NCBI RefSeq assembly: GCF_009733735.1
Contig: NZ_WNJP01000002.1
Span: 1 to 53,474 of the forward strand
Direction: 5' to 3'
Source: Sandarakinorhabdus oryzae
GTDB taxonomy: Bacteria; Pseudomonadota; Alphaproteobacteria; Sphingomonadales; Sphingomonadaceae
Length of the DNA: 53,474 nucleotides
Shown here: piece by piece, positions 1,437 through 22,253 of the stretch
Layout of the letters: the number at the start of each line of letters is the position of its first letter
Position numbering within the stretch: position 1 is the stretch's first letter
Made by a program: the position numbers and the translations under genes
Notes under the pieces: model-generated
Database searches by the model: none
Told to the model about the DNA's origin: nothing
The model's input: the letters and a program-made list of their open reading frames with translations, nothing else

Positions 1437-3584
1437 TCAGGGAATCTGCAGGGTTGCGACCTGGCCCAGGGTCGAACCAAGCTGCGCAACATCCAGCCAG
1501 ATCGGTCCGGGCCTGTCGGGTACGACCCAACTGGTCTCGTTGATCTCTGCTTCAGCCAGCACCCCGGTCGCGTCGTGCAGCTTTACCCGAAACGCCAGCC
1601 GGGCCTCGCCGATGGGCACATCCGCCAGGTCGGGCCACCCAAACCCGGCGCGACTTTGGGGAGTCCATGTCAACAGCAGCTCACCGCCCTGTCGCCGCCA
1701 TGAGAGATGAACGGGCGGCAGTGGACAGATGCCGGCGCCGCCCAGCATGGCAGACACGGCCGGGGTAGCGCCGTCACCTCCGCCTGTAGCGCGGATCAGC
1801 ACGGTCTGGCCCAGTCGTTCCAATGGCATTGGCAGCGCCAGCATCGCACCCTGGTCGAGCAAGACGAAGCGTTCGCCAACCGCATGGCTGGCCGCTGCTT
1901 GTTCCGTTCCGCGCCTGCCTCGCAACAGTCCCGACAAGCGGAACAGACGGCTGCCCAGTGCTTGGGCCGTGGTGAACTGGATGATCTCAGTTCCCAGCAC
2001 AGCCATGTTGGCGCCGGCCAGCACCGAGGCTTCGCTGCGGCTCTCAAGCCACATGGTGTCAGCCAGCATCTCGATATCGACATGGCCAAACCGATCCCAT
2101 CCGGCCGCGCTGGCTGGCGCCAGAATGGACTTGGCTGTCCCTATCGGAACGGGTGCTTGCAACTGGCCCACCGGATCGTAACTGGCGCCGTCGTCAAAGC
2201 TGATCGCGACCCCCGACCGCTTCCAACCGGGCATAGCGCCCGCGCCGGCCAACCACAGCCGGGGGCCGTCAGGAAGCTCGCCAGGCAGCGGCGGCAGATC
2301 CAGAACGGCCAGGCTGGTGGGCCCGGGCGCCTGATCGCCTTGGTCCAGCACACGACCGGGGTCGCTCGGCAGTGGCTGCAGCGGCGCTGCACCAACCCTT
2401 GCCATCTCCAACGTCAGCACAAAGGCTTCGAAGCGCGTTTCACGCACCTGCCAGTCCAGCCCCTCCAATCGCAGCACGTCGCCAGGGGCAATGCCAAGAT
2501 AGCGCCACGGCAGCCGCAGGGTGCGTCGCTGACGTTCTGCGGCCAGGCGCAACATCCGGTCGCTACACAGTTTCTTGGCGGCCGTGGCGGACAGCGCCAG
2601 CGGCAGACCATCACCGTCCACCCGCACGCCCGGCCGCAGCCGCGCCCGCTGCAGACCGGGCTGGTAGTCGCGATCAATGTCATAATAGCCCAGCTCGATG
2701 GCGTCGGGCGTCGCACTGGCCGCGGCCCGACGCTGGCGTTCACGCGCTTGCTGGCGGTTGCCAGGCCGGGCGTCGACGGCGCCGGCAGGATCGATCAGCA
2801 TCGGCGACTGCCCCGGCCCGACCAGCGTCTGACCAGCCGCCACGACGCCGCCTATTGCCTTCAAGGTTGGGGCCAGCACGTCAGCCAGCGAGGCAGCCGC
2901 GCCGACATAGAGGCCGGCCACGTCAGGAAAATCGCCACGCATCGACAGCGGGATGGCGACCGACGCAGCCAGATCGGTCAGCGCCGATCCGAGCGCCACG
3001 GGACCATCATCGGCGATGATTTCAAACGCCAGATTGGGCAGGCGATTGCCGAATTCGGCCAGCGGCAAATCCTCGAACACGGCATGGGCAAGGCCGCGAA
3101 ATGCCGGTGCATCGCCCTCAGCAGCTGCGATCAGCGGATCGACGGTCTGGCGTTCACTGCCAGTGTGCAGCCGCATCGTCACGGGCTGCAACCATTGACC
3201 GCCAGCGTCGCGCAGCAGCTTGCCATCGGCCCACACCCGGCCTATGCCGATGATGGGGCGCCCAGCCAACAGCACGGCAAAACTCGCTGAATAGCTGTAG
3301 CTGGTGGTGGCTGGGCCGCGCTTGCCACCGCCGCTGCGCGTGGTCGACTCCCGGATTGGTGCGGCCCACACGACATTGCCACTTACCCGCATACGGCCAC
3401 GAACCACCGGGATCGGCTCACCATAGCTGGCCGCCTGGATTTCAGGATTGGCGAGGCGCGGCCCGCTGCGACTGCCACCGCCAAACAGGCGGCGATCAAC
3501 GGCACTGCCGAGCAATGTGCCGACGATGCCGCCAATCGGGCCCAAGACGACCCGGCCAACAAAGCCCAAGACCAGAGTTGCCAT
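1437..3584 (-). CDS. Phage/GTA tail-tip (host specificity, g15-like) protein
   Basis: 715 residues. A hydrophobic glycine-rich N-terminus (VLGPIGGIVGTLLGSAVDRR) is followed by strands typical of tail-tip proteins (QAASYGEPIPVVRGRMRVSG, SYSYSASFAVLLAGRPI) and later by fibronectin-like and baseplate regions. The position after the NlpC/P60 gene matches g15 of the R. capsulatus GTA, the large central tail protein. That protein is about 1,300 residues and has an N-terminal TIM-barrel region; this one is little more than half that size and lacks it. A comparable barrel is instead fused to the g12-like protein of the same cluster. AGGAA precedes the ATG by 6 nt. Confidence 0.8.
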   Translation of the reverse strand: MATLVLGFVGRVVLGPIGGIVGTLLGSAVDRRLFGGGSRSGPRLANPEIQAASYGEPIPVVRGRMRVSGNVVWAAPIRESTTRSGGGKRGPATTSYSYSASFAVLLAGRPIIGIGRVWADGKLLRDAGGQWLQPVTMRLHTGSERQTVDPLIAAAEGDAPAFRGLAHAVFEDLPLAEFGNRLPNLAFEIIADDGPVALGSALTDLAASVAIPLSMRGDFPDVAGLYVGAAASLADVLAPTLKAIGGVVAAGQTLVGPGQSPMLIDPAGAVDARPGNRQQARERQRRAAASATPDAIELGYYDIDRDYQPGLQRARLRPGVRVDGDGLPLALSATAAKKLCSDRMLRLAAERQRRTLRLPWRYLGIAPGDVLRLEGLDWQVRETRFEAFVLTLEMARVGAAPLQPLPSDPGRVLDQGDQAPGPTSLAVLDLPPLPGELPDGPRLWLAGAGAMPGWKRSGVAISFDDGASYDPVGQLQAPVPIGTAKSILAPASAAGWDRFGHVDIEMLADTMWLESRSEASVLAGANMAVLGTEIIQFTTAQALGSRLFRLSGLLRGRRGTEQAAASHAVGERFVLLDQGAMLALPMPLERLGQTVLIRATGGGDGATPAVSAMLGGAGICPLPPVHLSWRRQGGELLLTWTPQSRAGFGWPDLADVPIGEARLAFRVKLHDATGVLAEAEINETSWVVPDRPGPIWLDVAQLGSTLGQVATLQIP

Positions 3585-3593
3585 GGTGAGTTC

Positions 3594-4016
3594 CTATCGC
3601 AGGCCGGGCAACGCCCAGCAGGCCGCCACGGGCCAATCATCTGGCGCTGGCCCCTCAACCACCCGGCCCAAACCCGCATGGGCGTGCAATATGCCGCGAT
3701 CCGTGACGAGCGCGAGGTGGCGATGACCGGGTGCCAGCGCATATTCGATCAGGTCTGCTGGTTGCACGCGCCGCACCCGGCGCAGGCCAAGCCGGCATAG
3801 GGCATCTGCCAACAGGGCATCATGATCGCCGCCAAGGGCATAGGCCGGCACCGGCCCGAGCTGCAGTCCGGCACCAGTTGCGGCCAGCAATGCAACGCCA
3901 ATGCAGTCAAGCCCGATGCCGACGTTGCGTCCTTGCGGGTGGAAGCGGGTGCCCAATCCGGCGCGCGCAGCGGCAATGGCCGCCTGCCGCCGTCGGGTCA
4001 GCCGCGCCACAAGCAT
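3594..4016 (-). CDS. NlpC/P60 family peptidoglycan peptidase (GTA g14-like)
   Basis: 140 residues from the ATG at 4016, chosen because GAGGAAGGGG lies just upstream; an ATG at 4037 would overlap the hub gene. The papain-like core is visible: catalytic Cys38 in GLDCIGV and His111 in GILHAHAG. Family members cleave peptide cross-links in peptidoglycan and, in GTA and phage tails, help the tail cross the recipient cell wall. It sits between hub and tail-tip genes, as g14 does in the R. capsulatus GTA. Confidence 0.85.
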   Translation of the reverse strand: MLVARLTRRRQAAIAAARAGLGTRFHPQGRNVGIGLDCIGVALLAATGAGLQLGPVPAYALGGDHDALLADALCRLGLRRVRRVQPADLIEYALAPGHRHLALVTDRGILHAHAGLGRVVEGPAPDDWPVAACWALPGLR

Positions 4017-4026
4017 GGCCCCTTCC

Positions 4027-4827
4027 TCAGATGGCATAGCGAGTCAGCAGGTCGCCGCCCGGCACATGTGGTTCGCCGCGGAAATTGCGGGCATTGGAAA
4101 AGCGGTCCCGGCATGTGGCAAAGCGTTTGTCGCAGCCTTCCCGCACCATCACCCGCGTGCCCGGCGCCAACTCCAGCGGTTCATCGAGCAACAGCCAACC
4201 GGCGTCTTCGGCGAGCAGACGGCGCACGAGCCCGGCTTGTGGACCATCCATGACCGCCAGTTCGCCCTGCACGTGATCGCCCGCGACGATTCCCGCCAAT
4301 TGCACCCGATCGGGAGCAGACGCCGACACGGTTACCAGCCGCTCGCGGTTGCGCAGGCTGACCCGGCAGCGGGCATCGCCCAACTCGGCCCGGCATTCGG
4401 GGGAGCAGGTTTCCACCGCGCTGGCAGCGAGCGCCGCACCCGGCCCGATCAATTCCGCCTGAAAGCCGGCATCGGCCCCCGTGCCGACGGACACATCACC
4501 AAGCGTGCCCTGCGCCAGCAGGTGCCGCCCACCATCCGGATCACGCCAATCGACCAGGTACAGCTGCAGCCGCGCGCCATCCCAACGCCCTGCCAGCAAG
4601 TCGGTCGCCGTCAGCGACCCGGCCGACAAGGCGCCGGACACTTCCATGTCATCCGCGGCCACCGCATCGCCCAGCACCACGGCCGAGGCCGACATGCCCG
4701 GGCGATGCGCGTGGCGCAGACCATCGACCAACAGTTGCTGGTCATGGCTGGTGAAGCCCAGTGCCACGCCATCGCGGCGCACCAGTCGCCAGCACAGCGC
4801 CAGGTGAGTGAGATCTTCCGCCAGCAT
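4027..4827 (-). CDS. Tail hub protein, DUF2163 family (GTA g13-like) with putative Fe-S cysteines
   Basis: 266 residues. The N-terminus (LCWRLVRRDGVALGFTSHDQ) is typical of DUF2163, followed by the C-terminal domain shared with phage hub proteins. Cysteines fall at 141, 145, 154, 232 and 239, giving C145-x8-C154 and C232-x6-C239. Phage lambda tail-tip protein L, a related hub, binds a [4Fe-4S] cluster with four cysteines, so a cluster is likely here. GGGAGG precedes the ATG by 8 nt. It lies 3 bp downstream of the distal-tail gene. Confidence 0.85.
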   Translation of the reverse strand: MLAEDLTHLALCWRLVRRDGVALGFTSHDQQLLVDGLRHAHRPGMSASAVVLGDAVAADDMEVSGALSAGSLTATDLLAGRWDGARLQLYLVDWRDPDGGRHLLAQGTLGDVSVGTGADAGFQAELIGPGAALAASAVETCSPECRAELGDARCRVSLRNRERLVTVSASAPDRVQLAGIVAGDHVQGELAVMDGPQAGLVRRLLAEDAGWLLLDEPLELAPGTRVMVREGCDKRFATCRDRFSNARNFRGEPHVPGGDLLTRYAI

Positions 4828-4830
4828 GGA

Positions 4831-7194
4831 TCACGCCTCCCGGATCTCGATCAACGGCACAGACGGCAGTTCGCCGGCGCGCCAGCCAGCGATCGAGACC
4901 TCGACGCGATCGGTGGCAAAGCGAACCGGCACGTCGAAGCGAAAGCCAGCTGTCACCGCCGCGCCAATGGCCGGCGCGTCGTCGAAATCGATATGACCGC
5001 CCGGTGCCAGCCGCCAGCCGCCAGCCTGGGCGACACCACCGACAGCCACTGTCAGCGTTTCTGGCCACGGGCGGGTGATGCGACGGACCTGTGGGGGCTC
5101 GTCGGGCAGCGCGGCATCGCCATAGGTCTTGATCAGCGCAAAGCGGGTGATACCGCCATCGCCGGTGCCCAGACGCTGGTCGAACGGCGTCGGGTCGCTG
5201 CCGGCTGCGGCCGAACAATTATCGAGCGGATCGAGAAAGCGGAAACCGTGCGCCTGCCCGCGCCGCGCACGGAAGAAGGCGATCAGGAGCTGCAAATCGG
5301 CCTCGGAACGGATGCCCAGCCCGGCATCATATTCCAGCCTTGCATCGCTCCATTCGGCGTTGCGTTGCTCGGCACCCGACCCGGTGACCACCACCTGGGT
5401 GGAGAAGGCCGGGCCGCCGGCAGCGCCAAAGCCGAGCTCAAGCGGGAAGCGCACGTCGTGGAAACTGGCCATGTCATCCTCCGGGCCGGCGTCATCGATC
5501 TGGAACGGGGTGAAGCCGTCACGGGCCACCTGCGGCCAGGCCCAGGCGAAGGTCTCTGCGACGCCCAAGGCAAGTGCGTTGGCAGCGGCATCAGCGACCA
5601 ACGGCCACTGCACGGCAGCATCATCCTGGCTGAGCACAAAGCCGGCGAGATAGTGCTGGCGGGCGCGGGGATAGGAGAGTTGCGTCTCCACCAGCGACCG
5701 TCCGCGGGCTTGCCCGGCCTGATTGGCCGCCGTGACGAAGCTGTAATCCTCCAGCTGAAGCACATCGAAGGCGGGGAATGCCCAGGCCGCCGGCATGTTG
5801 GCCCGGGCCAGATCAGGCCGATCCGCGAGCAGCACCTGCGGCGTGTAGAACAGCAAGTGGGTGACAGTGCCTGGCGCTGCCGCCGTTGCCGCCGCCGTCA
5901 GCCCGGCCGTCGCTTCGGCGAGCCGTTCCCCGCACCAATCGAGATAGGCGCGGTCGGCAGCGGACTTTGCGCCGCGGATATCGGTCATCGCCGGCGCCGC
6001 ACTGCCGCGCTCCGCCTGCCAGCGTGCAGTGGTGGCCGCATCATAAAGGCAGGGCTTGTTGTTCGGACCCACCCACCACCACGGCTCCCCTACCTGAAAA
6101 GCCGGATCAATCTCCGCCGCCAGCGCCAGTTCCATCGCAGCGCCTGCCACCGCGCGCAGCCAGGCCTGCGCGGCGGATTGGCAGGGCGACAGCAGGGCCG
6201 ATGGTGGCGACCAACCCGTCAACCCGATCGCGCCGTCTGCATCGCGCTGCGCCCAGGCCGGTGGGCAATGCTGGGCCAGAAGTTCCATAGACAGCGACAG
6301 GATTGGTGCAAATCCCAGGGCGCCGGCGCGGGCGAGGAAATCCCGATGCCATGCCGTAGCCGGGCCGCAGAAAGGCCGCGCCGGATCAGCAACGTAGCCG
6401 CCCAGCCCGTCGGGCAGCAGCGCCATGAAATGGCTCATTCCGAGATAATGGGTAATGGCTCCGCGCCAGCCGAGCAGCAACGCCTGTTCGAGGATGCGCT
6501 CCGGCGTCTGGTTGTAGAGATCGTCATAAGCCATGCACAGGCGCAGCGGTTGCGGCGGCACCAATGGCTGCCCGGCCTTGAGCACGGCACCGGCGCCATC
6601 AAGCAGCAGAGTGGTCAGCCGCACCTGGCCACTGGCCACAACGGGCAGCGGCGCATCAACCCCGTCGTAGCCCGGCGGCACCAGGCTGATGAACAGCCGG
6701 TCGATATCGCCGGCCCAGACCGGATCGGCCTCCGTTGGCAGCAGGAATCCGCCGCTCAGCGCATCGAAATCCAGCGTGATTTCGGCATCTGTCGCACTGC
6801 CGGCGGCATAGTTCCACAGCCGCACATACCAGGTGCGCGGGACGCCGCCGGCATCGCGGCCCTCGATGGTGAGCACCGGGCCATTGACGGCATCCAGCGG
6901 CAACACTGCGCCCGACGATTGCCAACGGAAGCGCCACAGCAGCCCACGATAATCCTGTCGCGTCTCAAGCGCGCACAACGGATGGCTCCAGCGATCTGCT
7001 GACTCCCAGATCAGCCCCGCCAGATCGGCACGGCGCTGAAATTCCAGGTCCACCACCACGCTTTCCGGCCCGTCGGTGGTTACGCTGGCCATCATCGGGC
7101 GCGGGAAATCCACCAGCCACCAACGCGGATCGAACCGGCGCACCCAGCGCGTTCGGCCCTGATCGGCCGGGCCCGCCAGCCACCAGCGCATCAT
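4831..7194 (-). CDS. TIM-barrel-like tail protein fused to DUF2460 distal tail protein (GTA g12-like)
   Basis: 787 residues in one open frame. Residues 1 to about 215 are beta-rich. Residues about 216 to 570 resemble a glycoside-hydrolase-type TIM barrel (LRLCMAYDDLYNQTPERI, PCLYDAATTARWQAERG, FDVLQLEDYSF), the kind found in tail proteins. Residues 575-787 form a complete DUF2460 domain (RFPLELGFGAAGGPAFSTQV, RRGQAHGFRFLDPLD). In the R. capsulatus GTA, g12 is a separate protein of about 210 residues that links tail tube and hub. The junction keeps an in-frame ATG at 5472 with its own Shine-Dalgarno, so both a fusion and a free 213-residue protein could be made. The gene overlaps the tape-measure gene by 4 bp. 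Confidence 0.8.
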   Translation of the reverse strand: MMRWWLAGPADQGRTRWVRRFDPRWWLVDFPRPMMASVTTDGPESVVVDLEFQRRADLAGLIWESADRWSHPLCALETRQDYRGLLWRFRWQSSGAVLPLDAVNGPVLTIEGRDAGGVPRTWYVRLWNYAAGSATDAEITLDFDALSGGFLLPTEADPVWAGDIDRLFISLVPPGYDGVDAPLPVVASGQVRLTTLLLDGAGAVLKAGQPLVPPQPLRLCMAYDDLYNQTPERILEQALLLGWRGAITHYLGMSHFMALLPDGLGGYVADPARPFCGPATAWHRDFLARAGALGFAPILSLSMELLAQHCPPAWAQRDADGAIGLTGWSPPSALLSPCQSAAQAWLRAVAGAAMELALAAEIDPAFQVGEPWWWVGPNNKPCLYDAATTARWQAERGSAAPAMTDIRGAKSAADRAYLDWCGERLAEATAGLTAAATAAAPGTVTHLLFYTPQVLLADRPDLARANMPAAWAFPAFDVLQLEDYSFVTAANQAGQARGRSLVETQLSYPRARQHYLAGFVLSQDDAAVQWPLVADAAANALALGVAETFAWAWPQVARDGFTPFQIDDAGPEDDMASFHDVRFPLELGFGAAGGPAFSTQVVVTGSGAEQRNAEWSDARLEYDAGLGIRSEADLQLLIAFFRARRGQAHGFRFLDPLDNCSAAAGSDPTPFDQRLGTGDGGITRFALIKTYGDAALPDEPPQVRRITRPWPETLTVAVGGVAQAGGWRLAPGGHIDFDDAPAIGAAVTAGFRFDVPVRFATDRVEVSIAGWRAGELPSVPLIEIREA
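5472..5482 (-). promoter_or_regulatory. Internal ribosome-binding site and start codon at the DUF2460 boundary
   Basis: On the minus strand GGAGG (5482-5478) stands 5 nt before an in-frame ATG (5472). Translation from here gives 213 residues, exactly the DUF2460 domain. The upstream domain has no stop codon before it. This suggests either a recent fusion of two genes or deliberate production of two proteins from one frame. Confidence 0.6.
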
Positions 7195-7763
7195 GTCCGC
7201 GCCCGTTCGAGCGCGCGCGCCACAGCGCGCGCCACCTGGTTGCCGGTCTGCTGCATGGTGGCCGGCGTCGCGTCGCGCGGGGCTGCGACGTTGACGGTGA
7301 CATTGACCATCCGACCAGGACCGCCATTAGCTTCCACGCGTCCTGCGGCGGTCGGCACGAACAATTCCGGCCCGCGCTCGCCCACCATATAGGCCCGGCC
7401 GGCGGATACCGGCCCGCCGGTTGCGCGGCCCGGCAGGCCCAGCAGGCTGCCAACCAGGCCGCCAAGCAGACCCCCGCCGCCACCCAGCCCGCCACCGCCG
7501 AACAACCCGCCCAGATCGAGCCGAAGCGCGCCCTGTGCAATATCGCCAAGCGCGGACAGTGCCAGTCGCTTGAGATCATCAAAACCGAGCTTGCCATCCG
7601 ACAAGGCCCGGCCCAATGCCCGCGACAGGCCGCTGCCCGCCCGGTCCAGTCCGGCGGCGAACGGACCATCCAGCGTGCGCTGGATGTCGTTGACGCCGGC
7701 CATGAAGCCGCCGGTATCGGCGCGCACGCGCACCACCAGATCCTCGATCGGTTCAGCATCCAT
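7191..7763 (-). CDS. Short tail tape-measure protein (GTA g11-like)
   Basis: 190 residues. It opens with DLVVRVRADTGGFMAGVNDI and has a glycine-leucine rich hydrophobic middle (roughly residues 82-112), followed by RATGGPVSAGRAYMVGERGP and ELFVPTAAG, the C-terminal signature of tape-measure proteins of GTAs and lambda-like phages. The length is close to the R. capsulatus g11 protein and predicts a short tail. It overlaps its neighbours by 11 bp upstream and 4 bp downstream. Confidence 0.85.
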   Translation of the reverse strand: MDAEPIEDLVVRVRADTGGFMAGVNDIQRTLDGPFAAGLDRAGSGLSRALGRALSDGKLGFDDLKRLALSALGDIAQGALRLDLGGLFGGGGLGGGGGLLGGLVGSLLGLPGRATGGPVSAGRAYMVGERGPELFVPTAAGRVEANGGPGRMVNVTVNVAAPRDATPATMQQTGNQVARAVARALERART

Positions 7764-11088: not shown

Positions 11089-13875
11089 TCAACTCGCCGT
11101 GATCGCCAGCGCCTTCTCGCGCAGCACCGTCACGCCATCAGCTGCCATCAAACGAACCGAGACCGTGCGCGCCCCAGCAAACCTCTCTGTCGCCACCAAC
11201 CTGGCATCACCCCGCGTCGTCACTGCAACGCCCGATGTGATCCCGCCCGTCGCCGGGTGGCGGTTGATGCCTTGCAGTGGGTTTCCGGCCTGGGCGATAA
11301 GGTTGGTGCCGCCGCGATGGTTCTGGTTGTCATAAAGCAGACCATCAAAGCGTCGTTCGTTCAGTGTCGCCTCGTCGGCCTGCTGTGCGATTGTGGCGAA
11401 CGGCCAGTCGCGGGCATAATCCACGCGGGTCACACTGGCGTTGAACGCCGCGCCCGTGCTGGTCAGCACCGCGCGCGTCCCGCTCGCATCCAGCGCCACC
11501 GTAAAGCCGGTGTTGGTCCACGTGCTGCCGCCGTCCTGGCTGATCCAGAACAGCTCGGCGGCAATCGCCGCGGCGTTGAGCGTGCGCACCTTGCGGCCCA
11601 ATTCGATCTGGATCGATGTGCGCGTGCCATCGGTAAACCAGGGCCCGATCACGCGCGGGCCGTGCGCCTTGATCTTGCGGTTGTAGAACCAGGCCACGCT
11701 GCGGCCCAAGCCGCGCCCGATGCGCGCCTGTCCCACTTCGTTCTGATCGCTCGACGGGCTGCCACCACCGCCCGCCGTCGCGTTGCTGTGATAGGCCGGG
11801 TGGAGGCTGCCGCTGTTCGATGCCAGATGGTCGCTGAAACAGGGCATCAGCACGCCGCGGCTGCCCAATTCGTCCACCAGATCAAGGCAGCGGCTGCGAT
11901 AGTTGATCGCGCCATAGCTGGCCGCCTCAACCGACATGCGCCAGATCGGGAAAATCCCCCACGGCGCATTGGGCGCGTTGGGCAGGCGCGCATCAATCGC
12001 CGCCGTATAGGCCGCCCGCCCAGCCTGCGTCGTGACGATGGTGGGCCACATCATCAGGTGCACGTCGGCATGGCCACCCATCAGATAGCCATAATAGTTC
12101 ATCACACCGCTGGCGCTGCCATCGCTGGCCCCGGGCTCGGCCAATGTCGTTGGCCCCATCAGCGTCCAGGAGGCATGGCCAGACGGCACGGCGGTGTTGT
12201 CGATCCAGTTCTGCTGCCCCACGCCATTGATCGCCATGTTGACGACGATCAGCGGCACGCCCGGGTTATGGACGTTCCATTCATTGGCCATGCGCACCAG
12301 GCCCTGCCCGACAGCGGGCGTGGTGCCACCGACCACCCGCCACCAGCCCGGCGTCGGCCGCACATAGCCACTGGACGTGCCGCCGCGCTGATCGTTCAGC
12401 TTGACCATTGCCGCCTGCACACCGGCACTGGCCGCCACGCCAAGCCGGTTGACGCCCGGCGCCGCATCAGGCTCACCCATGGCAAACTGCTCGATCCCGG
12501 ACTGGCCATGCAGCCAGACAACCACGCCCACCAGCCAGTCGCCGCTGCTGGCCGCTTCCAGCGTCGTCAAATTGGCATCGCGCACCCGCAAGCGGTACGG
12601 CCCGCCCTCTGGGAGCGTGTCGCTGCAGGTCCAGTTGCCCGACGACAGCGTAAGACTGCCGCCCCAATCAAAGCCCGGCACGGCGGTGCCTGTCGCCTCC
12701 ACCTCCCAGCGGCGCTGCAGCGCCGTGGTGCTCACCGCGTCATAGGTGCCGGCGAACGTCCTGGCCCGCGTGCCGCGCCCGCCGATGCCCTTCACCACAT
12801 AGGGATTGATCGTCGGCGCGATTGCCCCCGCCGTCCAATGCGCCGGCGCGATGGTCGCTTCATCAACCAGGCCCGCGGCGTTGGCTGATCCGCCATCTGT
12901 CGGCACAAGATCAACCGAGGCCACCGAGCCGCTGTTGCTGAGGCCGGTGGCAAGATTGGTCAGCTTGTACCAATAGCGAACGTCTGCCTTGCCCTGCCCG
13001 CGATTGCTGGGAAGGTTGCTGTAAGGCAGTGTCCCCGCATTCATGTCGCTAACAAGCGTCGCATAGGTCTTGAAGGCATTGGCGCCGGATCCCGCCAGCG
13101 CCGCGATGGCGTCGTGGTGCGGGCGGCCAACGCCAGCCGCGCCGCTGCTGGGATTGTTGGCGGTGTCCCAGGGAAAATCCCCCACCACCAGTGCGACATG
13201 CTCCAGCACTGTGCCGACAACAGTGCGGATCGTACCGCTGCTGCCCTGCGCCACAAAGATCTGCGTCAACAGCCGCCCGGTCGTGTTGGTCAGCCAGTTG
13301 GCCGTGGTCGCGGTGGCCGCCACATAGGTTTCGGGCGTGCCGCCGTTGCGACAGATGCAGATGAAGTTTCGCCACGACGGGCTGGCATTGCTGCCCACGT
13401 TCATCACGCCATCGATGACCAGCACTGCTTCCGAAGCCAGCGGCGTGGCTGAAGCCAGCGGCAGCTGCGATTGCGTGGACGGCCAGTCGCCTTCGTTGGC
13501 CGCCGCGCTGGAGCCGCCCGAGCCGCCGGAATAGGCCGGCGTGCTGCTGCCGCTGGCATAGTTGATCCGGGGTCGGCGCTGTGTGGCGGCGACCGTGCTG
13601 TAGCCGGCCTGCGGGATGCGCAGGCTGGTGTCGGTGGTGCCACTAAACACCGCGGTATTGGCCGCGTCATATCCCAGGATCGCGGTCGCGCCGTTGCCGG
13701 CATAGCTGGTCGGCAGCCGCACCCAGGCTGCACGCCAGTGGCCAACAACGTCCGAACCGCTGAACGGCGCGCCGCCGAGGGCGGTCAGGTAATTGCGCTT
13801 GCCGGCGCCGGTGCCCTGATTGCTGCCGGGGATGCGCAGATCGCGCCCACCCTGGATTGCGACTTTGATCGCCAT
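11089..13875 (-). CDS. Large putative fiber/spike protein with SGNH-type (sialate O-acetylesterase-like) domain
   Basis: 928 residues, the largest product of the cluster. Residues 1 to about 310 are beta-rich and glycine-serine rich, probably a particle-binding or lectin-like domain. Residues about 445 to 735 resemble SGNH hydrolases: WLHGQSGIEQF (HGQS at 456-459) fits the nucleophile block, IVVNMAINGVGQQNW the second block, and SGSLHPAYHS (His692) the terminal histidine block, although the usual Asp three residues earlier is Gly. The C-terminal 190 residues are again beta-rich. Such domains remove acetyl groups from surface polysaccharides. The ATG overlaps the upstream stop by 1 nt. Confidence 0.55.
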   Translation of the reverse strand: MAIKVAIQGGRDLRIPGSNQGTGAGKRNYLTALGGAPFSGSDVVGHWRAAWVRLPTSYAGNGATAILGYDAANTAVFSGTTDTSLRIPQAGYSTVAATQRRPRINYASGSSTPAYSGGSGGSSAAANEGDWPSTQSQLPLASATPLASEAVLVIDGVMNVGSNASPSWRNFICICRNGGTPETYVAATATTANWLTNTTGRLLTQIFVAQGSSGTIRTVVGTVLEHVALVVGDFPWDTANNPSSGAAGVGRPHHDAIAALAGSGANAFKTYATLVSDMNAGTLPYSNLPSNRGQGKADVRYWYKLTNLATGLSNSGSVASVDLVPTDGGSANAAGLVDEATIAPAHWTAGAIAPTINPYVVKGIGGRGTRARTFAGTYDAVSTTALQRRWEVEATGTAVPGFDWGGSLTLSSGNWTCSDTLPEGGPYRLRVRDANLTTLEAASSGDWLVGVVVWLHGQSGIEQFAMGEPDAAPGVNRLGVAASAGVQAAMVKLNDQRGGTSSGYVRPTPGWWRVVGGTTPAVGQGLVRMANEWNVHNPGVPLIVVNMAINGVGQQNWIDNTAVPSGHASWTLMGPTTLAEPGASDGSASGVMNYYGYLMGGHADVHLMMWPTIVTTQAGRAAYTAAIDARLPNAPNAPWGIFPIWRMSVEAASYGAINYRSRCLDLVDELGSRGVLMPCFSDHLASNSGSLHPAYHSNATAGGGGSPSSDQNEVGQARIGRGLGRSVAWFYNRKIKAHGPRVIGPWFTDGTRTSIQIELGRKVRTLNAAAIAAELFWISQDGGSTWTNTGFTVALDASGTRAVLTSTGAAFNASVTRVDYARDWPFATIAQQADEATLNERRFDGLLYDNQNHRGGTNLIAQAGNPLQGINRHPATGGITSGVAVTTRGDARLVATERFAGARTVSVRLMAADGVTVLREKALAITAS

Positions 13876-19661: not shown

Positions 19662-19716
19662 TTGATAACCAAAAGCGTCACGCTTGTCAACTACAAAAGT
19701 GCCTATTTGGTTATTC
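19662..19716 (-). promoter_or_regulatory. Putative promoter of the GTA-like cluster bracketed by inverted ATAACCAAA boxes
   Basis: On the minus strand TTGACA (plus-strand 19685-19690) is separated by 17 bp from TATCAA (19662-19667), a good sigma-70 promoter about 40 bp before the small terminase start. Two copies of ATAACCAAA in opposite orientation flank it, at 19706-19714 (upstream of -35) and 19665-19673 (over -10), centres 41 bp apart. The upstream copy is part of a 15-mer (19702-19716) that recurs before the holin gene at 33,738. Its last bases are the stop codon of the preceding hydrolase gene. Confidence 0.65.
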
Positions 19717-21123
19717 ACGCAGCGTCGCCACGACGTCGGCCGCAAAGCGCGTCATGGGGAATGGGGCAGATGGCAGATCGAATCCGCGCCGGATCACGAT
19801 GATGTTCTGCCCCGGCACGATCACCGCATATTGGCCGCGGTTGCCGTTCATCGCGTAGGTGCCGGCGGGCAGCGGCGACACGCCGTCGTGGCCACCCAAC
19901 CCACCCCAGCGCCAGAAGCCGGCACCATAGCCTTCCGGGCGATTGACCGGCTGTGGACCATCGGCGCGCTCGACGAAGGCCGGCCAATCCGGCGGCAGCA
20001 GTTGCTGGCCACCCTGCCCAAGGCCCACTTTGCCGCCGTTCTGATACAGCAGCGCCAGCCGTGCCAGATCGCGCGCCGTCATCCACACCTGGCTCGACAG
20101 CACGAAATCGCCCCGCCAGTCCGTTTCCGGCGTGGTGCGCGTCATCCCCAACGGCCACAGCAGCTCGGTGAACGGGAAGGCCAGCGCCGCGTGGCGCCCA
20201 CCCTCCTTGGCCAACGTGCGCGACAGCGCCAGCGCCGCCAGCAAGATGTCATTGTTGCTGTAATTGAAGTGGCTGCCCGGCGCATGCTCCAGCGGCATCG
20301 CTGCTGCCGTCTGCGCCACCTGGGCGCCGCCCAGATACACTTCATCAGTGCGATTGCCCGGCCCCGCCGTACACAAACCGCTCTTCATGCGCAGCAACTG
20401 GCTCCAGGTGATGGCGGCGCGCGGATCGCCCGGCTGCTGCCAGGCCGGCACCGGTGCTGGAAGCGCCACGTCCACCAGCCCCTTCTGCACCGCCCGCCCC
20501 ACCAGCGTCGCGGTCAGCGATTTCGCCACGCTCCAGGTGCGCTGCGGCGTGTGCATTGTCCAGTCGGCGCGATAACGCTCGGCAACGATCTTGCCGTCCT
20601 TCAGCACGATCACCGCCGTGGTGCGATCGCTGGCAAAGGCTGTCTCCACCGCTGCATCGAGCGCCGCCCGTGCCTTGCGCTTCTTCAGCGGCTGCACCGC
20701 GCCGGCATCACCCAGCGGCCACGGCTTCGCATCCGTCGCCACCAGGTCAGGCGCAGTCAAGCCCGGCACCAGGCGCGGCACGGCGGCCAGCGCTTCGGCA
20801 CCGGCGCCGGGCGGCAGTTGTGCGCACCCCAGCAACGGCCGCCATACTGCAATGCGCGGCGGCATGTCCGGCGCATATCTCACCGAAACGGTTCGCGCGC
20901 CCTCGTCCACCTCGGCCTTCAACCCGCCCACCAGCGGTTGATATTCGGGATAGATGCCGGTCAGATCATCGCGCGTGATGCTGGCGTCGTCCTGCCCGGC
21001 ATTCCAGCGCCCCGAACAGACAAACGCCGCCTTGTACCCCGCCGCCAGTGCCAACTTGTGTGGATCTTCCCCCGCGGCTGCCGGTGCCGCCAGCAATGCC
21101 AGCGCGATGAAAGCCTGTCTCAT
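19711..21123 (-). CDS. Secreted serine hydrolase, class C beta-lactamase fold
   Basis: 470 residues from the ATG at 21123, which overlaps the previous stop (ATGA). A signal peptide (MRQAFIALALLAAPAAAGED) precedes an N-terminal extension of about 130 residues, then the beta-lactamase/esterase domain with SxxK in TWSVAKSLTATL and YxN in HFNYSNND. Late GGHDGVSPLPAG takes the place of the KTG box. It is probably a periplasmic esterase or peptidase; resistance cannot be inferred. Confidence 0.8.
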   Translation of the reverse strand: MRQAFIALALLAAPAAAGEDPHKLALAAGYKAAFVCSGRWNAGQDDASITRDDLTGIYPEYQPLVGGLKAEVDEGARTVSVRYAPDMPPRIAVWRPLLGCAQLPPGAGAEALAAVPRLVPGLTAPDLVATDAKPWPLGDAGAVQPLKKRKARAALDAAVETAFASDRTTAVIVLKDGKIVAERYRADWTMHTPQRTWSVAKSLTATLVGRAVQKGLVDVALPAPVPAWQQPGDPRAAITWSQLLRMKSGLCTAGPGNRTDEVYLGGAQVAQTAAAMPLEHAPGSHFNYSNNDILLAALALSRTLAKEGGRHAALAFPFTELLWPLGMTRTTPETDWRGDFVLSSQVWMTARDLARLALLYQNGGKVGLGQGGQQLLPPDWPAFVERADGPQPVNRPEGYGAGFWRWGGLGGHDGVSPLPAGTYAMNGNRGQYAVIVPGQNIIVIRRGFDLPSAPFPMTRFAADVVATLRE

Positions 21124-22253
21124 GCCATCAAGGCTCCCCACACGCCGGCCATCAGCATGCCGGCGCGCATGTCGCCCAAGGTCGTGCCGGCCATCTTGTT
21201 CATCACATAGGACATGCAGAGTTTGGCATCCATGTCGCAGACGACGAGGGAGCCGCCATAGCCGCCCCAGAACACGGTGTTGGGGTTGGGCAGCGGCCGG
21301 GCCGGGCTGGAAAGGCCATAGCCCATACCGTAGCGGACGGGCATGCCGAGCACGAGGTCGGACGGGGTTTCGATTTGGAGTTCCAGCGCCTTGCGCACGC
21401 CAGCTTCGCTGAGCAGGCGCTTGCCATTGGCGACGCCACCGTTCGCCATCAGCGTCTGCACCGCCACCACCGAGCGGGCGTTGCCGTGGCCGTTGGCGGC
21501 GGGGATTTCGGCCGCGCGCCAGGCGCGGGTGCGGGTTTCCAGCGGATCGACAGGCGGGTTGCCGCCCATGTTCTTGGCGAGATCCGATTGCGGACCGTCG
21601 GTGATGCTGGCGCCCTTGGGCGGTGGCACCAGATCGGCGACGCGGGCATCGTGGGCGGCATCGAGCCCGATGTGAAAATCGGCGCCCAGCGGCCCGGCCA
21701 GTTGTTCGGCAAACACGGTGCCCAGCGACTTGCCGGTAATGCGCCGCACCACTTCGCCAACCAGCCAGCCCTGGGTGAGGCCGTGATAGCCGGCGGCCGT
21801 GCCCGGCTCCCAATAGGGGGATTGCGCCGCCAGCCGGGCGCAGCACAGATCCCAATCATAAATATCGGTGGGCTGCATCGGTTCGGCAAAGCCGGACAGG
21901 CCGGCGCTGTGGCTCATCAGCTGGGCCACGGTCACGCCCTGTTTGCCGGCCGCGGCGAACTCCGGCCAATAATGGCTGACCCGCTCCTCGAAGCGCAGCT
22001 GGCCCTGATCGGCGAGCCACAGCGCGGTCAACGCCGTCATCGTCTTGGTGGTGGAATAGACGTTGACGATGGTGTCCTGGGTCCAGGGCCGCGTCTGGCT
22101 TTCGTCGGCCCAGCCCGCCCAGATGTCGATAATCGGCTCGCCATTCAGAGTGGCGGCGAAACTGGCGCCAATATCGTCCCCGCGCGCCACGGCGGCGGCC
22201 AGCGCATCCTTCACATGGGCAAATTTGGGGTGGGTCCAGCCTTCGACGCTCAT
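21120..22253 (-). CDS. Serine hydrolase, EstB-like beta-lactamase family esterase
   Basis: 377 residues with no obvious signal peptide. The SxxK nucleophile motif is NVYSTTKTMTALTALWLA, the tyrosine motif is in AAGYHGLTQGWLVGEVVRR, and a glycine-rich C-terminal box is WGGYGGSLVV. These match cytosolic EstB-type esterases. It overlaps dgt and the second hydrolase gene by 4 bp each, so all three are translated from one message. The substrate is unknown. Confidence 0.85.
   Translation of the reverse strand: MSVEGWTHPKFAHVKDALAAAVARGDDIGASFAATLNGEPIIDIWAGWADESQTRPWTQDTIVNVYSTTKTMTALTALWLADQGQLRFEERVSHYWPEFAAAGKQGVTVAQLMSHSAGLSGFAEPMQPTDIYDWDLCCARLAAQSPYWEPGTAAGYHGLTQGWLVGEVVRRITGKSLGTVFAEQLAGPLGADFHIGLDAAHDARVADLVPPPKGASITDGPQSDLAKNMGGNPPVDPLETRTRAWRAAEIPAANGHGNARSVVAVQTLMANGGVANGKRLLSEAGVRKALELQIETPSDLVLGMPVRYGMGYGLSSPARPLPNPNTVFWGGYGGSLVVCDMDAKLCMSYVMNKMAGTTLGDMRAGMLMAGVWGALMA

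Follow-up and report, generated by a model that had tools for sequence, protein, structure and literature searches.

In RcGTA, the distal tail protein (Dit) Rcc01695 (g12; 6tba/6teh) forms a hexamer in which odd- and even-numbered subunits make different contacts with the hub and the megatron of the three-fold baseplate, and its N-terminus, Ala2 included, takes part in baseplate contacts, as given in the available portion of PMC7296036. Both this protein and the Dit of roseophage R4C (8gtc) are 210-214 aa long and carry no N-terminal module. In coliphage N4 (9lc0, 9yf4, 9yf5), gp64 and gp65 are two separate proteins that form a heterodimer and build a non-contractile sheath on a short tail, according to the accessible part of PMC12633501. 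Here we analyzed a stretch of 53,474 nucleotides from Sandarakinorhabdus oryzae (contig NZ_WNJP01000002.1), hereafter the window, in which one gene combines the DUF2460 domain shared with the RcGTA and R4C proteins, a barrel like that of gp64, and an NCTSP_N domain like part of gp65. Among the open-access literature matches listed, we found no description of a fused g12 or of a GTA g12 with an internal start, and the available portions of PMC6821227, PMC9765227 and PMC11409702 make no mention of a g12 fusion. The features of the locus, all on the reverse strand, are as follows.

4831..7194 (-), long product NCTSP_N-TIM-DUF2460, a predicted barrel-bearing Dit of 787 aa and 84.9 kDa
6571..7143 (-), NCTSP_N domain, residues 18-208 (PF23844, 1.1e-86)
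5512..6558 (-), NCTSP TIM barrel, residues 213-561 (PF23845, 8.3e-135)
5473..5511 (-), linker, residues 562-574, variable in sequence among relatives
Residues 579-785 of the fusion, DUF2460 domain (PF09343, 4e-74)
5478..5482 (-), putative internal Shine-Dalgarno (SD) sequence GGAGG, duplex -9.5 kcal/mol
5470..5472 (-), putative internal start codon ATG at residue 575; ATG, GTG or TTG among relatives
4831..5472 (-), predicted short product, the DUF2460 Dit alone, 213 aa, 22.6 kDa, g12-sized
7191..7763 (-), upstream gene at the g11 place, 190 aa, tape-measure family matches, 4-base overlap with the long start
4027..4827 (-), hub (g13), a separate gene (PF09931, PF09356)
3594..4037 (-), g14 place, weak NlpC/P60 peptidase match (TIGR02219, 5.6e-5, below cut-off)
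1437..3584 (-), short megatron (g15), 715 aa, lacking the peripheral domain that bears a TIM barrel

The frame at 4831-7194 (-) runs through 787 codons with no internal stop, and all three domains within it scored far over their Pfam cut-offs. This bears out the preliminary description of the locus, which had recognized a barrel-like domain in frame with a full DUF2460 domain, and adds a third domain, NCTSP_N, that it had overlooked. The DUF2460 part reached 248.8 bits against a Pfam cut-off of 30.4, and its TIGR02217 score of 218.6 bits, against a cut-off of 136.65, places it in the Rcc01695 family, a model that was matched by 44/44 rows of alignment A3. RcGTA Rcc01695 itself matched the DUF2460 part at 1.2e-50, and the fusion gene lies between g11 (tape measure) and g13 (hub), the position expected of this family and the place before the hub that g12 occupies in RcGTA. 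An AlphaFold model of the 787-aa protein had a mean pLDDT of 87 and was confident over NCTSP_N and the barrel, with values below 50 at residues 569-576 of the tether and again at 588-621 within DUF2460. Residues 18-91 of NCTSP_N are a distant match to residues 56-129 of the N4 sheath protein gp65, while the barrel superposed on gp64 with a Z of 29.7 and an rmsd of 3.0 over 306 aligned residues at 28% identity. With profile scores over the cut-off and a matching fold, the N-terminal part was assigned to the NCTSP module.

After gp64, structure comparison of the barrel returned glycosidase-like folds, including PgaB and a Thermus beta-galactosidase. Two acidic residues of the barrel, E370 (in GEPWWW) and E482 (in LEDY), are invariant in both alignments made, and the GEPW motif was kept in 111/113 relatives. 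In clan GH-A, the second catalytic acid is usually found at strand 7. As read on the model, E370 would follow strand 4 and E482 would end strand 6; by our reading, these acids lie off the usual clan GH-A places, and the barrel appears glycosidase-like by fold.

The predicted genes around the fusion follow an RcGTA-like order (terminase, portal, capsid, connectors, tail tube, tape measure, Dit, hub, g14, megatron), with g14 matched weakly and an extra 928-aa ORF within, and as judged from its sequence the cluster is GTA-like. The extra ORF, at 11089-13875 (-), sits inside the head cluster between the capsid and connector genes; it had no match in Pfam or PHROG and only an unconvincing best match in the PDB (E 0.09), and full-length homologues were found at the corresponding place in two genomes of the same genus (L369, L370). 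At a guess, it could be a head decoration protein. Another ORF, at 19711-21855 (-), has a domain of the Pfam Beta-lactamase family (PF00144) and adjoins the terminase end of the cluster.

The preliminary description had held that a single missing stop codon separates two genes from one, which would make the fusion a recent stop loss. Among 249 genomes of the same family, DUF2460 was found in 166, and 143 of the 150 matches listed for these, all of which were used as loci, lie in frames of at least 760 aa. Extending the search to 147 genomes of the order, other families included, identified the barrel in 72, mostly in frames of similar size, whereas, among 385 genomes sampled across the class, the 57 matches listed outside the family lie in frames of 199-404 aa. 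DUF2460 is thus predicted to be a separate gene outside the family in the class-wide sample and the fusion is, on these frames, the rule within the order, where named genera with it include Sphingomonas, Novosphingobium, Sphingobium, Erythrobacter, Sphingopyxis and Emcibacter. As the fusion is spread over the families of the order and DUF2460 is a separate gene elsewhere, we regard the fusion as a property of the order Sphingomonadales as defined by GTDB, some members of which are named Emcibacteraceae and stand under Emcibacterales at NCBI. Because the boundary frame is open in 143 of the 150 listed relatives and in most relatives from other families of the order, the fusion is old and no one-base accident, and the open frames across family and order rule out a sequencing error or the accidental loss of a single stop.

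The long frame itself has been kept. Barrel sequence occurs in the DUF2460 frame at 145/147 family loci. The final RDG-like motif lies 12-21 residues ahead of the F of F[HD]D in 143/144, length changes coming in whole codons; the single exception, with 4 residues, could be an artefact of the motif. With no stop between barrel and DUF2460, ribosomes that make the barrel would also make DUF2460. There are loci at which the long frame is broken within NCTSP_N or the barrel and the short frame and its start are intact (L032-L034, L036, L165, L190, L192 and L268). The break is a frameshift in L032, L033 and L190 and an in-frame stop in L165 and L268; L034 and L036 have a damaged or displaced megatron as well, L192 is a fragment from a phage record, and L035 ends at a contig edge. 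These broken frames may mean that the long form, or the barrel, is dispensable, or they may reflect decaying clusters or assembly errors.

At the exact boundary of DUF2460, the window reads GGAGG, 5 nt and ATG, as had been described. Cases that would speak against an internal start, namely relatives with no start codon or ribosome site at this boundary, were looked for, and a start codon was found in every fused relative examined. ATG, GTG or TTG stands at the boundary in 150/150 of the listed family matches, comprising 147 fused loci with the start no more than one codon from its usual place, one fused locus with the start 8 codons upstream, and two standalone genes. Counting by non-redundant family loci, a set of 147 that includes the standalone genes L037 and L038, the start lies exactly three codons before the F of F[HD]D in 142 (ATG 74, GTG 63, TTG 5), is shifted by one codon in four, and in L050 is a GTG 8 codons upstream of the usual place, preceded by GGGGAGG-ATGGC. 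Three further listed loci beyond the 147 also have the boundary start, one of them, L368, with a weak site. The start was likewise present in 20/20 loci fetched from other families of the order (20 of 29 genomes) and in 160/160 loci drawn from a single phage record, from GTDB contigs and from IMG/VR (best 80 matches per search), a set with 142 boundary sequences absent from the family set; L219 stands outside the count of 160 as it does not fit the motif expression, and its residues show Met three before F.

With related loci treated as independent, Val at the start position is encoded by GTG in 63/63 cases versus a frequency of 0.525 elsewhere in the same genes, and Leu, again treating related loci as independent, by TTG in 5/5 versus 0.113. 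On a tree of 132 rows, which keeps the rows with the start one codon off and omits L050, where the start is absent at the place, at least 24 switches among ATG, GTG and TTG were counted at the internal start.

The ribosome site is conserved beyond what the encoded peptide asks for. Across 140 loci, the mean SD duplex at the internal site was -8.3 kcal/mol, versus -3.2 kcal/mol for in-frame start codons elsewhere in these genes (n=5371) and -6.1 +/- 0.22 kcal/mol upon synonymous resampling of the same peptides, so that the real sites are stronger by about 10 standard deviations. An SD 4-mer is present in 135/140 loci, with a mean of 91 and a maximum of 103 over 200 synonymous draws, and the five residues preceding the start form 133 distinct pentapeptides among 144. 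The start codon of the preliminary description has a counterpart at every Dit-fusion boundary examined, but its ribosome site does not always have a clear one: no exact 4-mer was found at the internal start in 5/140 family loci and in 8 of the 158 phage, GTDB and IMG/VR loci with a long upstream frame, the remaining 150 having one. Compared with one synonymous resample per locus, the mRNA at the internal start is 0.9-2.5 kcal/mol less folded at every step from -36 to +24, while differences outside this interval are at most 1.2 kcal/mol and of either sign. Comparison with the predicted long start in 112 loci gave mean SD duplexes of -8.1 (internal) versus -6.9 kcal/mol (long), the internal site being stronger in 66 and equal in 3, and mean local mRNA structures of -8.5 versus -12.1 kcal/mol. 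In the window, the respective SD duplexes are -9.5 and -2.5 kcal/mol, and translational coupling to g11 through the 4-base overlap could additionally help initiation at the long start. With a start codon and a ribosome site kept inside a kept open frame, the locus has the features of a nested in-frame gene, and conservation strongly supports the internal site as a selected site of initiation.

Fusions of the same NCTSP_N-TIM module to the hub, g13, provided a control. These were found in 14 loci with 11 distinct boundaries from alphaproteobacterial genomes and viral contigs (L038, L187-L189 and L355-L364), and g12 is separate in 12 of them; the remaining two have contigs that start within the fusion gene. 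No start codon occurs near the hub boundary in 13/14 of these fusions, and the one that does occur is an ATG without an SD. An SD-like 4-mer lies near the boundary in two (L362, L363), with no start beside it, and the other 12 have none. These hub fusions rule out that an old start simply persists in whatever fusion is formed. A second start is therefore not automatic upon fusion and goes with the fusion to Dit.

Taken together, the comparison strongly supports the earlier suggestion of two products from one gene, and we put the probability that this gene directs dual initiation, giving a 787-aa and a 213-aa Dit, at about 0.9. Initiation at 7194 would yield the long Dit, with NCTSP_N and the glycosidase-like barrel on a tether, and initiation at the internal site (5482-5470) would yield Dit alone. 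It is quite likely that, in addition, the tail makes some use of both products. Several other readings of the internal site were weighed. The long protein might also be cut at its linker, providing free Dit by two routes; a linker that is variable and modelled with low confidence would suit this, but the linkers share no short motif, as the diversity of the pentapeptides illustrates, and we consider such cleavage very unlikely. Even less probable is that only the long form works and that the internal start is a relic of a once separate gene, its short product being noise. That g12 is separate and has its own start outside the family in the class-wide sample is what this reading would predict, yet switches confined to start codons, an SD beyond synonymous expectation, relaxed mRNA and divergent linkers in relatives all point to present selection. 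We give least credit to the purine-rich stretch being an SD-like pause that aids folding of the barrel before DUF2460 without initiation: the stretch does lie at a domain boundary, but a pause needs no start codon at a fixed distance, which leaves the restriction of Val to GTG and of Leu to TTG unaccounted for, and 12 of the 14 hub fusions carry the same barrel without an SD-like 4-mer at the boundary.

Where the two forms would act is a further question, and dual initiation probably, though with less assurance than the preceding steps, places both the long and the short Dit in the particle; the preliminary description had added that their amounts may be unequal. Both forms would join the hexameric distal tail ring, so that only some of its six subunits would bear a barrel, the barrel-bearing Dit most likely filling just one of the two kinds of site that alternate where the ring meets the three-fold baseplate. 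This would give about three barrels per particle, as the megatron-borne barrel of RcGTA gives three. A barrel on the hub or megatron would come in three copies, and a barrel on every Dit would put six copies at an N-terminus needed by the baseplate unless unbarrelled Dit is also made, which the retained internal start would supply. A fixed ring of three long and three short Dit, in which a six-fold tube would become a three-fold, barrel-decorated platform and the mismatch would be set by initiation, is a tentative and somewhat doubtful extension. The sequence does not dictate a 3:3 ratio, and the much stronger internal site in the window could mean fewer than three barrels. It is also conceivable, but unlikely, that both proteins are made and the ring consists of the short form only, with the long form elsewhere on the tail, like a sheath or in association with the hub, or taken up only occasionally. 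The internal site equals or exceeds the predicted long start in 69/112 loci and has the weaker local structure, and the related N4 proteins, in the accessible account (PMC12633501), sheathe the tail; against this, the long form has a complete and conserved DUF2460, which would be an odd anchor outside the Dit ring.

The barrel of the fusion does not appear to be the one known from megatrons. PF13547 (GTA_TIM) had no match in the fused protein or in the megatron of the window at E 0.1, and a GTA_TIM barrel was found in 8/10 megatrons from module-less clusters outside the order. At Dit-fusion loci, 73 megatrons end within the available DNA, of which 70 have 619-749 aa, three are shorter and none is longer, the high-scoring complete set and an unfiltered recount sharing this upper limit. 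Megatrons of at most 749 aa leave no room for the GTA_TIM peripheral domain. The idea that the megatron barrel had moved to Dit found no support: 29 NCTSP sequences compared with 11 megatron middle regions, three of them without a GTA_TIM match, gave a probability of 0.4%, and an NCTSP profile compared with eight GTA_TIM stretches gave a probability of 1.3% (E 0.04). The NCTSP barrel would therefore belong to a different family from GTA_TIM; a remote relation is possible, and is not supported at the sequence level. The particles appear to be furnished with a barrel of one type or the other, whether on the megatron, the hub or Dit; neither type occurs in a few clusters (L037, L182 and L186). 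In L037 (5557-10999) and L182, a large region separates the two halves of the hub, which lies in frames of 593-747 aa, and the megatrons are of 1069-1170 aa; neither GTA_TIM nor NCTSP was matched, a further arrangement.

Read as one frame, this gene would encode one fused protein, and the order-wide comparison says two. That accessory barrels are borne by different tail proteins (GTA_TIM by the megatron, NCTSP by the hub or Dit) constitutes a natural experiment, and the junction between six-fold tail and three-fold baseplate becomes testable by a single start-codon change. If the ring of three and three were true, clusters with the same barrel on the trimeric hub would need no second start, and they have none. 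Among known systems, RcGTA and R4C have megatrons with a peripheral domain several hundred residues long, which the megatron of the window lacks. The hub-fused version shares with the Dit-fused cluster the NCTSP_N-TIM module and, where the gene is complete, a short megatron, but it differs in having the module on the hub, a separate g12 and no start codon with an SD at the boundary. In the siphophages Loki and Pavpe01, the distal tail gene comes first and is followed by a protein with a similar NCTSP module, the C-terminal part of which, in Loki, matched only the tail-protein family phrog_2048 and not the Pfam hub models. Nested in-frame genes are familiar from C and Nu3 of phage lambda, in which the shorter C-terminal product arises from an internal start. 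The lambda pair differs from the present one in its domains and in consisting of a head protease and a scaffold, whereas here the nested product would be a subunit of the tail ring.
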